A stretch of 64,000 bases of DNA from Allorhizobium pseudoryzae (lineage in GTDB: Bacteria > Pseudomonadota > Alphaproteobacteria > Rhizobiales > Rhizobiaceae). Under the pieces are notes generated by a model. That model saw only the letters and a program-made list of their open reading frames with translations. It had not been told where the DNA came from and did not search any database. The DNA lies in the NCBI RefSeq assembly GCF_011046245.1, contig NZ_CP049241.1:2558001-2622000 (forward strand). The letters are read 5' to 3'. Of the stretch, positions 10,307 through 45,164 are shown one piece after another (the stretch's first letter is position 1; the number at the start of each line of letters is the position of its first letter). The translations under genes and the position numbers were made by a program.

Positions 10307-10363
10307 ATGATCGTATCGAACGCACTTATCGTGGTGGGAAGGCGCATGGGCAGGACGGAGTAA
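10307..10363 (+). CDS. ilvB leader peptide (attenuator, 18 aa)
   Basis: The peptide reads MIVSNALIVVGRRMGRTE. Seven of its first ten residues after Met are Ile, Val, Leu or Ala, with the run Leu-Ile-Val-Val at codons 7-10, as expected for a branched-chain amino acid leader. Codon 13 onward overlaps the 5' arm of a hairpin (10342-10350), and a terminator hairpin with seven Ts follows before ilvB. No ribosome site precedes the ATG. With the candidate promoter just upstream the message would be nearly leaderless, as known for the rhizobial trp leader peptide. Confidence 0.75.
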   Translation: MIVSNALIVVGRRMGRTE

Positions 10364-10389
10364 CCGTCCGGCGATAGCCACCCATGCGC
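10342..10389 (+). promoter_or_regulatory. leader hairpin of the ilvB attenuator
   Basis: GCGCATGGG (10342-10350) pairs perfectly with CCCATGCGC (10381-10389). Nested inside is GGACGG-AGTAA-CCGTCC (10353-10369). A ribosome stalled on the Leu-Ile-Val-Val codons (10325-10336) would cover the outer 5' arm, whereas one at the stop codon would open the inner stem. Its exact role (pause or anti-anti-terminator) is inferred. Confidence 0.6.
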
Positions 10390-10395
10390 AAACCG

Positions 10396-10420
10396 AAGGC
10401 TCCTCAAGGGGCCTTTTTTT
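10396..10420 (+). terminator. attenuator terminator before ilvB
   Basis: AAGGCTCC-TCAA-GGGGCCTT forms an eight-pair stem (one G-U) with a four-base loop and runs into seven Ts ending at 10420. It lies between the leader peptide and ilvB, as an intrinsic attenuator should. Confidence 0.82.
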
Positions 10421-10475
10421 ATGCCTTCAATCTGGCTACGGCCTCGTGACAATCAGAGCAGACGGACTTTTTGAC

Positions 10476-40593: not shown

Positions 40594-41532
40594 ATGCCGT
40601 TGCCGTCCAGCTTTTCTAACCTGCGCCTGCCCGCCGTTGCCGCGCCGATGTTTCTGGCATCGGGCCCGGATCTGGTGGTCGAGACCTGCCGGTCCGGCCT
40701 TGTCGGCACCTTTCCGGCACTGAACCAGCGCACGACCCAGGGCTTTGTCGATTGGCTGGCGGAAATCCGCGATCGGCTCGCCGGCCATGCCAATGCGGCG
40801 CCCTACGGGGTCAACCTCATCGTGCACCGTTCCAATCCGCGGATCGAGGCGGATCTGAAGGCGGTGGTGGACAACAAGGTGCCGCTCGTCATTACCTCGC
40901 TCGGCGCCGTGCCGGATGTGGTCAACGCGGTGCATTCCTATGGCGGCCTGGTGTTCCACGACGTCATCAGCCGTCGCCATGCGGAAAAAGCGGCCGAGGC
41001 GGGTGTCGATGGCATCATCGCGGTCTGCGCCGGCGCCGGCGGCCATGCCGGCACGCTCAGCCCCTTTGCCCTCATTCCGGAAATCCGCTCCTTCTTCGGC
41101 GGCACGATCCTGCTGTCCGGCGCGATGAGCACCGGCGCGCAGATTGCCGCGGCCCGGATGATGGGCGCTGATCTCGCCTATCTCGGCACCCGTTTCCTCG
41201 TCACGAAGGAAGCGATGGTGAGCGACGACCAGAAGCGCATGACCATGGAGGCGAAGGCCGGTGACATCATCTACACCGATGCGATTTCTGGCGTGAACGC
41301 CAATTTCCTGCGCCAGAGCATTGTCGCGGCCGGGCTCAATCCCGCCAATCTCGTCTCGCATGGCCCGATGGACATGGCGAACGAGGCGAAGGCCTGGAAA
41401 AATGTCTGGTCGGCCGGGCAGGGCGTTTCGGCGATCGACGACATTCCGGCCGCAGCGGACCTATGCGAGCGGCTGATCGCCGAATACCGGGCCGCGATGA
41501 GCCAGGCTCTCTCGGATCCCTTCACGCATTGA
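40594..41532 (+). CDS. nitronate monooxygenase (2-nitropropane dioxygenase family)
   Basis: The 312-residue FMN-dependent TIM-barrel enzyme has LPAVAAPMFLASGPDLVVETCRSG at the N terminus, NLIVHRSNPRIEADL, the catalytic His segment VFHDVISRRHAEKAAEAGVDGI, ICAGAGGHAG-like AVCAGAGGHAGTLSPFALIPEI (phosphate and flavin loop), SGAMSTGAQIAAARMMGADLAYLGTRF. These are typical of NMO/enoyl-reductase-II-like proteins. The physiological substrate may be propionate-3-nitronate or another compound. It is a single gene. Confidence 0.9.
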   Translation: MPLPSSFSNLRLPAVAAPMFLASGPDLVVETCRSGLVGTFPALNQRTTQGFVDWLAEIRDRLAGHANAAPYGVNLIVHRSNPRIEADLKAVVDNKVPLVITSLGAVPDVVNAVHSYGGLVFHDVISRRHAEKAAEAGVDGIIAVCAGAGGHAGTLSPFALIPEIRSFFGGTILLSGAMSTGAQIAAARMMGADLAYLGTRFLVTKEAMVSDDQKRMTMEAKAGDIIYTDAISGVNANFLRQSIVAAGLNPANLVSHGPMDMANEAKAWKNVWSAGQGVSAIDDIPAAADLCERLIAEYRAAMSQALSDPFTH

Positions 41533-42172: not shown

Positions 42173-42316
42173 TTAGCGGAAGGAGCGCGACGCGATGTTA
42201 CGGATGTCGTAACGGGTCAGGCCGATGTCGCTGAGGGCCTGGTTGGAGAGGCTGCTCAGCTCGTTCATCGTGCGGCGATAGCTGATCCAGCTCTTTGCGA
42301 GACGAATCGGGTTCAT
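42173..42316 (-). CDS. DUF1127 small protein
   Basis: The 47-residue basic protein MNPIRLAKSWISYRRTMNEL continues with SSLSNQALSDIGLTRYDIRN. The short DUF1127 domain has the L-x-x-L-x-D-x-x-L-x-DIGLxRxDI signature. AAGGAAA precedes ATG 42316. DUF1127 proteins bind RNA or affect sRNA turnover in alphaproteobacteria such as Rhodobacter (CcaF1). A related DUF1127 gene and a cuckoo-like RNA lie upstream on the same strand. Confidence 0.9.
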   Translation of the reverse strand: MNPIRLAKSWISYRRTMNELSSLSNQALSDIGLTRYDIRNIASRSFR

Positions 42317-42507
42317 GGGGTGTTTCCTTGGATGTGTTGGCCAACCGATGTCTGATCGGTTGTGATGCGCTCTTATACAGCGTTGCATCCACTGTGTGCA
42401 CTGCAAAAGGCAGATCGCTGCTATGCAAATGTGCAATGTGATGCCGAAAAAAACATCTATGGCGATAAACTGGGCGTCGCCCGGGGAGGCATCCGAAAAG
42501 CGTGCAT

Positions 42508-42539
42508 AAAAAAACGCCCCCCGGCTGGGAGGCGTTTTT
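42508..42539. terminator. bidirectional terminator after the second DUF1127 gene
   Basis: AAAAACGCC (from 42508) pairs with GGCGTTTTT (to 42539) and encloses a GC-rich loop. On the minus strand it ends in six Ts. It lies 40 bases after the stop of the second DUF1127 gene. Confidence 0.8.
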
Positions 42540-42578: not shown

Positions 42579-42725
42579 TCAGAAACCAACGGCCGTGCGG
42601 GCAACGCGACGGATGTCACCGCGGCCGATGCCGAGGTCGGTCAGTTCGCGGTCCGACATGCGGCCGAGTTCAGTAACGGTCTGACGATACTTGCGCCAGT
42701 TGTTGAGCGAGCGTGCGATGTTCAT
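42579..42725 (-). CDS. DUF1127 small protein
   Basis: The 48-residue paralogue of the gene at 42173 reads MNIARSLNNWRKYRQTVTEL, then GRMSDRELTDLGIGRGDIRRVAR. The DUF1127 core L-x-x-M-S-D-R-E-L-x-D-L-G-I-x-R-x-D-I is complete and about ten positions match the first copy. AGAGGAAGACG precedes ATG 42725. The region 42726-42960 between it and the hairpin RNA has no gene and should hold its promoter. Confidence 0.92.
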   Translation of the reverse strand: MNIARSLNNWRKYRQTVTELGRMSDRELTDLGIGRGDIRRVARTAVGF

Positions 42726-42961
42726 GGTCGTCTTCCTCTTTGGTGTCTGTCGGAGCGGTCGTTTCCGTCTCTCGATCTCTTGAGGCTCAATATATGTTGC
42801 ACCGCGCAAATGAACAGCGCCTATCCCGTATGTCACCCATGCGCACAACGCATCGCTGGTTGATGGGTGTTAACCGGTATGGCGAAAAAATGAGCGGCAA
42901 GCCTGCGGCGGCGAGGAGAGCGTCGCCGGAGTGTCGAACCATGGGGTGGAGATGAGAGGGC

Positions 42962-43118
42962 CGTAAAAACAATAACGCTCACCGGGGGAGGAGGTCCGGT
43001 GAGCGTCATTTGTGATGACTGGCGATTGGGAGGAGGAGGGTCGCCAGTCTGATCGAGGTCCGCTGGGAGGAGGAGATGCGGTGCCTCGAATATGTGAAGC
43101 AGACTTTTCGTCCGCTGT
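42962..43118 (-). ncRNA. cuckoo/CcsR-like small RNA with three CCTCCTCCC hairpins
   Basis: Three perfect or near-perfect hairpins lie in tandem. On the minus strand, in transcription order: stem 43088-43054 (loop CTCCTCCTCCC), stem 43049-43017 (nine pairs, GACTGGCGA/TCGCCAGTC; loop CCCTCCTCCTCCC) and stem 43006-42975 (11 pairs, ACGCTCACCGG/CCGGTGAGCGT; loop ACCTCCTCCC). Each loop exposes an anti-Shine-Dalgarno CCTCC. This is the pattern of the cuckoo/CcsR family, which in Rhodobacter is co-transcribed with DUF1127. The last hairpin is followed by TTATTGTTTTT, a terminator-like tract. A promoter at 43126-43153 would give about 155 nucleotides. Confidence 0.72.
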
Positions 43119-43125
43119 TGTCCCC

Positions 43126-43153
43126 ATCATACATGCGACCGCGAAATTGTGCA
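43126..43153 (-). promoter_or_regulatory. candidate promoter of the hairpin RNA
   Basis: On the minus strand TGCACA (43153-43148) and TATGAT (43131-43126) are 16 bases apart. The predicted start is near 43118, just before the first hairpin. The known relatives use heat-shock or oxidative-stress sigma factors, which this match neither shows nor excludes. Confidence 0.4.
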
Positions 43154-43338
43154 GTGCAATGAATTCATGTGAGCCATACGTTACGCGCATGGCTCATCTG
43201 TCATGGTTAAAGCCTAGCTGAAGTTTATTAGAAAGTGGTAAATAGCGGCAACTTCCGGCATTCTGTCTGTCGCGCTCTGGAAAACCGTAAAAAGCCGGTG
43301 TGTGGAGGCGGAACGGGGCTGAAACTGTCATTTTTTCT

Positions 43339-43422: not shown

Positions 43423-43507
<85 letters not shown>

Positions 43508-43667
43508 GTTCCGCGGCAGCTTCTGCCGCAGGTCTGATCCGGCTGGCGGCCTCTCGCCCCAGCGCAAACGAGATTGCATCGAAGCCACGACCGGCGACAG
43601 GTTCCGGCGTCGTGCTCATGGAAACCACGGCTGTCTGAGCACCGCCGCATGATATGAAGGTATGACA

Positions 43668-45164
43668 ATGCAGGTTATCGAAACGCTCGCTGAAGGGCTG
43701 AAGCGCGAAATCAAGGTCGTAATCCCGGCCAAGGACATGGAACAGCGCATGAACGAGCGCCTGGCGGAAGCCAAGGACAAGGTGCGCATCAATGGTTTCC
43801 GTCCGGGCAAGGTGCCGGTTGGTCATCTGAAGAAGATGTACGGCAAGTCGATCATGGCGGAACTCGTCAATGAGATCGTCCGCGACCGTCCGAGCGCGAT
43901 CCTGTCCGAGCGTGGCGAAAAGTCGGCGACCCAGCCGTCGATCTCGATGACCGAAGACGAAGCCGAAGCGGAAAAGATCCTGTCCGCAGAAGCTGATTTC
44001 GAGTTCACGCTGTCCTACGAAGTCATTCCGCCGATCGAGCTGCAGCCGACCTCCGGCATCAAGGTGACGCGCGAAGTTGTTGACGTCTCGGAAGACGAAG
44101 TCAACGAACAGATCCTCAAGATCGCCGAAAGCGCCCGCGCCTACGACGCCAAGGACGGCGCTGCCGAAACCGGCGACCGCGTGACGATGAACTACCTCGG
44201 CAAGGTCGATGGGGTGGCCTTCGATGGCGGCGCTGCCGAAGATGCCGATCTCGTCATCGGTTCGAACCGCTTCATCCCGGGCTTCGAAGACCAGCTCGTT
44301 GGCGTCAAGGCTGGCGACGAAAAGACCATAACGGTCACCTTCCCGTCGGAATATCCGGCTGCGAATCTCGCCGGCAAGGAAGCCACCTTCGACATCACCG
44401 TCAAGGAAGTGGCTGCCCCGACCGAGACCGAACTCAACGACGAACTGGCTTCCAAGCTCGGTATCGAATCGCTCGACAAGCTGAAGGAAATCGTTCGCGG
44501 CCAGATTCAGGGCCAGTACGGCAACGTTACCCGCCAGAAGGTCAAGCGTCAGATCCTCGACCAGCTGGACGAGATGTACAAGTTCGAAACCCCGGCCGGT
44601 CTGGTTGACGCCGAGTTCGACAACATCTGGCGCCAGATCAACACCGACCTGCAGCAGTCGGGCAAGACTTTTGCCGACGAAGACACGACGGAAGAGGAAG
44701 CCCGCGAAGAATATCGCAAGCTGGCCGAACGTCGCGTGCGTCTCGGCCTCGTTCTCTCCGAAATCGGCGAGAAGGGCGGCGTGGAAGTGACCGAAGAGGA
44801 AATGCAGCGCGCGCTTTACGCCCAGCTGCAGCAGTTCCCGGGTCAGCAGAAGGAAATCCTGGATTTCTTCCGCAACACGCCGGGTGCCGCCGCTTCGCTG
44901 CGCGCGCCGATCTTCGAAGAAAAGGTTATCGACAAGCTGCTCTCCGAAATCGACGTGACGGACAAGACCGTCTCGAAGGAAGAGCTGATGGCTGACGACG
45001 AAGAGGGTGCCGAAGGCGCCGCCAAGTCGGAAAAGAAGAAGGCCGCCCCGAAGAAGAAGGCTGCCAAGGCTGAGACCGCCGAGGCTGCTGAAGGCGAAGA
45101 AGCCGCAGCCCCGAAGAAGAAGGCTGCTCCGAAGAAGAAGGCCGCCGAAGGCGACGCCGAATAA
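43668..45164 (+). CDS. tig: trigger factor
   Basis: The ribosome-bound chaperone and prolyl isomerase, 498 residues. [25 protein letters not shown] and the ribosome-binding signature GFRPGKVP open the N domain. A PPIase domain (about 160-245, [44 protein letters not shown]) and the helical C domain follow. The last 50 residues are a Lys/Ala/Glu low-complexity tail ([11 protein letters not shown]), common in rhizobial Tig. ATG 43668 is preferred to 43662, because GAAGG lies seven bases before it. Confidence 0.96.

Follow-up and report, generated by a model that had tools for sequence, protein, structure and literature searches.

An ar14 (NfeR1-type) small RNA of Allorhizobium pseudoryzae and its two DUF1127 neighbours, likely activated in parallel by LsrB/VtlR

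In Sinorhizobium meliloti, the small RNA (sRNA) NfeR1, formerly candidate C14 and later SmelC397, is reported to be encoded on the minus strand between SMc02051 and tig. Published accounts describe its gene as bound and activated by LsrB and repressed by NtrC, with an LsrB motif that reads TGCA-N6-GCAT. NfeR1 is described as silencing ntrB and ABC-transporter mRNAs, in that any of its three redundant loops pairs with the ribosome-binding site. Comparable anti-Shine-Dalgarno (aSD) loops are carried on two to four hairpins by SmelA075, SmelA099 and the 'cuckoo' RNAs, SmelA099 being a four-core RNA. In Rhodobacter sphaeroides, RNAs of the aSD type (CcsR1-4) adjoin the DUF1127 gene ccaF1 at the CIN1 locus, where the DUF1127 gene is reported to lead and to be co-transcribed with them from an RpoHI/RpoHII promoter. 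DUF1127 proteins reportedly bind RNA and help in sRNA maturation in Rhodobacter, and a DUF1127 protein of Agrobacterium is reported to act on the sensor PhoR. Finally, the VtlR regulon of Brucella and Agrobacterium is described as one in which a single LysR-type regulator activates both sRNA and small-protein genes. VtlR is reported to activate DUF1127 genes in Brucella and, in Agrobacterium, atu1667, an ortholog of BAB1_0914 and BAB2_0512. The published motifs are GCAT-N3-TG-N3-T for LsrB/VtlR in Brucella and Agrobacterium, and CAATGCAGCCATGCA for VtlR in Brucella.

The locus that we describe here lies in the window, that is, the whole stretch of 64,000 nucleotides of A. pseudoryzae DNA that was analysed. 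On its minus strand, the minimum free energy (MFE) fold places three stem-loops in series at 43089-43053, 43049-43017 and 43010-42971 (119 bases in total), each of them a covarying helix. The initial annotation had proposed these three tandem hairpins and given their stems nine to eleven pairs; this holds for hairpin 1 (10 pairs with bulges) and hairpin 2 (9 pairs), whereas hairpin 3 has 15. The loops of hairpins 1 and 2 contain CTCCTCCTCCC, and that of hairpin 3, ACCTCCTCCC, contains CCTCCTCCC. The energy of the fold is -65.3 kcal/mol, compared with -33.6 ± 3.5 kcal/mol in 200 dinucleotide shuffles (z -9.0), none of which folded as well. Moreover, the segment 42970-43094 is a full-length match to the Rfam family ar14 (RF02344, model positions 1-123 of 123), with 99.4 bits against a gathering cut-off of 58.8 (E 1.1e-18). 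As judged by its sequence and predicted fold, this RNA is a previously undescribed member of the ar14/'cuckoo' sRNA family. The cuckoo/CcsR pattern tied to DUF1127 genes that had been suggested for it is right as to the repeated CCUCCUCCC-hairpin kind and the DUF1127 partners, and wrong as to CcsR, the Rfam family being ar14. The CcsR model (RF02791) scores 21.5 bits, far short of its cut-off of 65.3, and on this score we reject membership of that family; the remaining weak Rfam hits nearby, 6C RNA among them, also fell below their cut-offs and were taken as chance. Two more ar14 copies in the genome exceed the cut-off, and neither has a DUF1127 gene within 1.5 kb in either direction.

Downstream on the same strand lie the two DUF1127 genes that had been noticed beside the hairpins, and Pfam agrees with their naming. 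The first (42579-42725, 48 aa, its end taken from the open reading frame list) matches PF06568 with E 1.9e-16 and the second (42173-42316, 47 aa) with E 3.7e-14; 251 bases separate the ar14 match from the first, and 663 from the second. On the plus strand, a tRNA-Leu(TAG) at 43423-43507, common to relatives, and tig (trigger factor, Pfam match) at 43662-45164 provide positional anchors. Hairpin 3 passes directly into the T-rich TATTGTTTTT, and given this direct run it looks like the terminator itself; the T-rich tract (42962-42970), an unpaired tail in the fold and the terminator-like tract first pointed out ahead of the DUF1127 genes, is the predicted 3' end of the RNA. Hairpin 3 is thus predicted to double as an intrinsic terminator. 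An intrinsic-terminator scan, which found 4 sites compared with 2.0 ± 1.8 in shuffles, listed none at hairpin 3 on the minus strand and placed a terminator-like site between the two DUF1127 genes (42517-42532, minus strand). The DUF1127 genes themselves are not obvious targets of the sRNA: the aSD loop forms weak duplexes with their ribosome-binding sites, at -8.5 and -4.4 kcal/mol where a perfect site reaches -21.2. Separately, one of five sites tried, the ribosome-binding site GGGGAGGA of a nitronate-monooxygenase-like gene (40594-41532, plus strand), pairs with the aSD loop at -14.1 kcal/mol, and this gene is a candidate target.

We scanned named relatives for trigger factor and took the best 80 of 221, the nearest being Rhizobium sp. 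CSW-27 (94% identity). A strict three-core pattern finds the ar14 RNA at 52 of these best 80 tig loci, and with the window this makes 53 tig-locus RNAs. The pattern misses RNAs whose core has changed; nine of the 28 loci scored as lacking the RNA have one or two cores upstream of DUF1127 genes, and another of the 28 (L060) ends too early to be judged. Across the 52 ar14-bearing loci, the spacings between loop cores are 25-33 and 33-40 nt and differ by single bases. Counting the window, the 53 RNAs have 159 loop cores, of which 149 leave at least 7 of their 8 bases unpaired. For alignment and covariation, 25 of the 53 RNAs were picked for spread. Their loop cores are invariant or nearly so, and double-sided changes occur in 17 of 28 pairs against 9.2 in shuffles, none of 500 shuffles reaching 17, which upholds the early remark that the stems differ while the loops agree. 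This count is the sturdiest measure of covariation. In the same alignment, paired cells make up 97.7% against a shuffled mean of 87.8% and the covariation score is 0.388 against 0.188, figures to be read with two points in mind: the slid control is generous to the structure because the structure was derived from the same alignment, and the shuffles overstate significance because the aligned sequences are related. Rfam's ar14 cut-off was passed in 37 of 60 relatives (36 of the same genus or the own genome, and one other) and in 40 of 41 genomes drawn from the family.

Ahead of the RNA lies a predicted -10 hexamer, TATGAT (43126-43131, minus strand), whose position is conserved; one such site was found, with 0.7 expected by chance. 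The RNA probably starts near 43119, about seven bases after this hexamer, and would then carry an extra 5' hairpin of 7 pairs (43098-43116 on the minus strand in the MFE fold) that falls outside the Rfam model. Over the 51 tig-locus RNAs with a TTGCACTGCACA-type element, the predicted start lies 26-146 nt (median 75) from the first aSD core. The 5' stretch varies much in sequence and length among the tig-locus RNAs, and its folding has a median z of -2.2, with z below -1 in 42 of 50 folded, as measured against 60 single-base shuffles each, a weak control. This extension may have begun as the leader of a DUF1127 gene that has since been lost, a suggestion to which we return below.

The three genes have similar sequences in front of them, all on the minus strand. 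Before the sRNA, a TTGCACTGCACAA element of the T-N11-A form (43147-43159) overlaps the predicted -35, TGCACA, and elements of this kind are present in 51 of the 53 ar14 promoters at tig loci, window included. An LsrB/VtlR-like box, TGC-N7-GTATGGCTCACAT (43167-43189), follows further upstream, with two mismatches to GCAT-N3-TG-N3-T. The first DUF1127 gene has the box GCATGGGTGACAT (42830-42852), an exact match to that consensus, and a -10, TATATT (42789-42794), predicted from the alignment footprint. The second has a related box with one mismatch, TGC-N6-GCATAG (42421-42435), a promoter element recognised by alignment, TTTTGCAGTGCACA (42395-42408), and a -10, TATAAG (42372-42377), again predicted from the footprint. 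From the GCAT/GTAT half to the predicted -10 we count 48 nt for the RNA, 48 nt for the first DUF1127 gene and 49 nt for the second. In upstream alignments each gene is preceded by a conserved block, which reads CATGC-N7-GCATG-N-CT-NN-CATG then ATTGCACTGCACAA for the RNA, ATGC-N7-GCAT-N-GGTG-N-CAT for the first DUF1127 gene, and TGCACA-NN-TGCAT-N-GCAGTCGC then TTTGCACTGCACA for the second.

The two strands of the 64-kb window together hold nine exact copies of GCAT-N3-TG-N3-T, among them the one before the first DUF1127 gene; that single match is therefore weak and only its conservation counts. The published consensus was not derived from our alignments, and its count on the family loci is an independent test. 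Of the 40 family loci, 15 carry it in the zone 40-200 nt ahead of their first DUF1127 gene, with about 0.8 expected over all 40 zones; elsewhere in the same 40 loci there are 21 matches in 166,504 bases, and the reversed pattern gives 0. An exact LsrB-type box also precedes the four-core RNAs described below in 13 of 17 loci, about 75 nt ahead of the first core. A relaxed box pattern and a stricter form were additionally drawn from, and counted on, the same alignments (L042-L121). The relaxed box is present in 39 of 53 ar14 promoters and 50 of 80 first-DUF1127 promoters at tig loci (the window counted in both), compared with 0.0024 expected per 200-base zone and no match to the reversed pattern; its median distance to a -10-like hexamer is 49 nt for ar14 (n 32) and 48 nt for the first DUF1127 gene (n 46). 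It is missing in the other 14 ar14 promoters, including those of the near relatives L042-L046 and L048, and in the other 30 first-DUF1127 promoters, and it occurs in only 12 of 40 family loci. The stricter form is found in 15 of 53 ar14, 46 of 80 first-DUF1127 and 0 of 61 second-DUF1127 promoters. Genome-wide, a 23-base pattern with seven free bases, as seen in the alignments, has four matches in 5.4 Mb, two of them outside the window sites, and none when reversed; since it was written to fit both window sites, their matching proves nothing and only its rarity is shown. Another copy of the promoter block, TGC-N7-GCATGGCTCACATG, lies on the plus strand at L149 (G000:C1:3089234-3089256, G000 being the window's genome), and the fourth genome match of the 23-base pattern is on contig C3. 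A pattern with six free bases, TGC-N6-GCAT-RG, was set aside as too loose after 65 window matches with up to one mismatch against 37 ± 6 expected; combined with a -10 it has two matches genome-wide, one of which is the second DUF1127 promoter.

The genome encodes an LsrB that matches 9hh1, the structure of A. tumefaciens LsrB, with 643.5 bits over 300 residues; it has three cysteines, whereas four are described for Agrobacterium LsrB. The lsrB gene is clustered with a trxB-like gene and two copies of abcR. AbcR1/AbcR2 (ar15) are, like the window RNA, aSD-bearing sRNAs of the LsrB/VtlR circuit, and here they sit beside lsrB, but they form a separate family with two aSD motifs and Hfq binding. 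Extra ar15/AbcR-type copies above the family cut-off are found at L123 and L124 (G000 contigs C5 and C3), the one on C5 with a GCATAGCTGCGTT box upstream. The window also holds, at 10309-10430 on the plus strand, the Rhizobiales sRNA Atu_C8 (RF02502), which scores 111 bits where 50 is the cut-off. Upstream of it, 37 nt from the end of the site, is a loose resemblance to TGC-N6-GCAT that does not match the LsrB consensus.

With C14 reported between SMc02051 and tig, and with the order ar14, ar14, DUF1127, DUF1127 at the Sinorhizobium tig loci L093 and L111, the window locus is the positional counterpart of nfeR1; its RNA, too, has tig as one neighbour and a small gene as the other. The two RNAs have in common three CCUCCUCCC-loop hairpins with variable stems and a terminator-like third hairpin, and they differ in the extra hairpin predicted here between the promoter and the first aSD hairpin. 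The putative promoter block of the window RNA is related to the LsrB box of nfeR1 and departs from the published motif at two positions. Two tandem ar14 copies ahead of the DUF1127 pair, as in L093, L111 and L115 (Shinella), are reminiscent of the neighbouring S. meliloti RNAs reported as SmelC397 and SmelC398. The loop motif and the modular hairpins recur in SmelA075, SmelA099 and the 'cuckoo' RNAs; the window RNA has three hairpins, while the four-core form is found at other same-genus loci. As in the VtlR regulon, an sRNA gene and small-protein genes would answer to one LysR-type regulator, but in that regulon AbcR is the sRNA and the reported genes lie at several places, whereas here ar14 and the two DUF1127 genes are adjacent. 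With CcsR1-4 and ccaF1 the locus shares aSD-type RNAs that adjoin a DUF1127 gene, and in the wide sense of the CIN1 association it has two DUF1127 genes nearby on the same strand. In the Rhodobacter locus, however, the DUF1127 gene leads, whereas the window RNA does not stand directly behind such a gene: it lies ahead of both, with its own promoter block and a terminator-like end.

How common is this order? At the tig loci, every DUF1127 hit is downstream of the RNA and on the same strand in all 52 ar14-bearing loci, and at least one DUF1127 hit is found in 79 of 80 loci (the sequence of L060 being short). Among 14 Agrobacterium-named loci, the strict three-core RNA is missing in 11, of which 10 have two DUF1127 hits. 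A survey of 36 genomes of the same genus, the own included, used 150 listed ar14 matches and 129 DUF1127 matches. The RNA is followed by two DUF1127 genes in at least 27 of the 150, corresponding to 27 of 36 genomes; one DUF1127 gene precedes ar14 at 203-261 nt in 18 of the matches listed; 105 of them have no DUF1127 gene within 1.5 kb; and none of the listed pairs is on opposite strands. Given these 105 matches and the 11 Agrobacterium-named loci without the strict RNA, the association of ar14 with DUF1127 is not obligatory. We fetched 18 loci of the preceded type (L127-L144), and all 17 that match the pattern have four aSD cores, like SmelA099; the remaining one, L137, gave no three-core match, carries its three cores further apart and does not enter the box count above.

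In a survey of the family (41 genomes from 41 genera; 139 ar14 matches and 84 listed, mostly best-scoring, DUF1127 matches), the picture is different. DUF1127 matches left unused in either survey can only hide further links. A DUF1127 gene lies within 1 kb of ar14 in at least 38 of the 40 genomes with a listed ar14 match, and in at least 28 of these 40 only 28-42 nt separate the end of the DUF1127 domain from the RNA behind it, a distance that leaves little room for a separate RNA promoter. This close arrangement is that of the published CIN1 association. Only one of 48 ar14/DUF1127 clusters has its members on opposite strands, among the matches listed. The order that the initial annotation had found unusual is therefore the usual one among relatives (52 of 80 tig loci, 27 of 36 same-genus genomes), and it is indeed changed with respect to Rhodobacter and to most of the family genera sampled, so that the remark has substance as an evolutionary point. 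Composite arrangements are present in four family genomes among the matches listed; in G072 it reads DUF1127-29-ar14-240-DUF1127-412-DUF1127, and its leading DUF1127 gene stands behind the same promoter block that precedes the RNA in loci of the window type. Within the flanks retrieved, the same tRNA-Leu(TAG) as in the window accompanies 17 of 40 family loci (12 DUF1127-first, three composite and two of the window type), and through this common tRNA both gene orders are seen to occupy the same genomic place.

These comparisons suggest that the RNA-first order of the window is probably derived within the family. The locus would have arisen from a CIN1-type operon at the same tRNA-Leu, in which ar14 stood close behind DUF1127, and separate promoters alike in geometry would have replaced co-transcription. 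A bolder version, which we put forward tentatively and would bet somewhat against, is that an ancestral DUF1127-ar14 operon was dismantled to give the nfeR1 locus of Rhizobium and its relatives: with the loss of its leading DUF1127 gene, the LsrB promoter came to drive the RNA, three parallel LsrB-type promoters of almost the same geometry now serve the three genes, and the leader is left over as the 5' hairpin domain. If so, this domain could be where DUF1127 proteins or RNases act. A further observation concerns L004 (G000:C1:2534225-2534414, minus strand), about 24 kb before the window start, where a small open frame ends in ...LDDDSLKALGTSREELNRKGATRYVF, which by eye resembles a diverged DUF1127 tail; the first of two aSD cores follows about 20 nt past the stop, with no Rfam match above the cut-off. 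L004 may be a CIN1 pair of the usual gene order that has diverged.

Taken together, we consider it likely, with a probability of roughly three in four, that the locus encodes a minus-strand ar14 (NfeR1-type) sRNA, predicted to stop the translation of many mRNAs through its loops, and that LsrB/VtlR activates this sRNA and the two DUF1127 genes in parallel. By analogy with S. meliloti, Agrobacterium and Brucella, the LysR-type LsrB/VtlR would bind and activate the promoters of the sRNA and of both DUF1127 genes. Three separate transcripts are predicted, one for the RNA and one for each DUF1127 gene, the RNA beginning near 43119 and ending in the T tract behind hairpin 3. Any of its three loops complementary to Shine-Dalgarno sequences might then silence ABC-transporter and other mRNAs, as proposed from the same three organisms; an NfeR1-like mechanism is the best guess, given the same loops and a related promoter block.

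The conserved blocks could instead be read by a regulator other than LsrB, such as OxyR or another LysR-type protein, in which case the RNA and the DUF1127 genes would answer a different signal. T-N11-A boxes are described as generic for LysR-type proteins, and the boxes of the sRNA and of the second DUF1127 gene deviate from the exact LsrB consensus. Against this, the first DUF1127 gene has a box that fits LsrB/VtlR exactly, 15 of 40 family loci show the same consensus ahead of their first DUF1127 gene, and LsrB is reported to bind and activate the corresponding sRNA promoter in S. meliloti; we hold such a regulator to be rather unlikely. That the RNA and DUF1127 share one transcript, from which the RNA is cut and then matured with the aid of the DUF1127 protein, as in a CcsR/CIN1-type operon, would suit the loop motif, the gene partners and the 28-42 nt spacing in at least 28 of 40 family genomes, but the score far under the CcsR1 cut-off, the leading position of the RNA, its own conserved promoter block and the terminator-like hairpin before the DUF1127 genes make this very improbable for the window.

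The hairpins might also act in cis, as leader or attenuator, on the first DUF1127 gene, which lies on the same strand with its domain 251 bases from the ar14 match; leader attenuation does control a DUF1127 gene of S. meliloti. We give this even less credit, since a conserved DUF1127 promoter block stands between the RNA and the gene, DUF1127 pairs are kept in 10 of the 11 Agrobacterium-named loci without the strict RNA, and most same-genus ar14 copies, among the matches listed, have no DUF1127 neighbour. Finally, an open frame of 106 codons exists at 42870-43190 on the minus strand, and the hairpins could be incidental to a protein-coding stretch. This reading we reject, as the frame has no Pfam match, the loop-core spacings shift by single bases over the 52 tig loci and the RNA covariation is strong.

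The RNA family, its link with DUF1127, the control of NfeR1 by LsrB and that of DUF1127 genes by VtlR are already in print. In the open literature searched, to which the paper defining cuckoo/CIN1 does not belong, we found no paper that names both NfeR1 and DUF1127. What is added here, by computation from sequence, is a putative promoter geometry common to the three genes, the two gene orders at one place and the predicted 5' hairpin. Should the LsrB boxes not be functional, the window RNA would be one more ar14 gene. If they are functional, the long-noted partnership of aSD RNAs with DUF1127 would amount to a conserved regulon that persists when the order of its genes changes, kept by close, operon-like spacing in most of the family genera sampled and by matched promoters here. 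This would join the activation of NfeR1 by LsrB, that of DUF1127 genes by VtlR and the handling of CcsR RNAs by CcaF1, and the role of DUF1127 proteins in the action of these RNAs would become directly testable in a soil bacterium.
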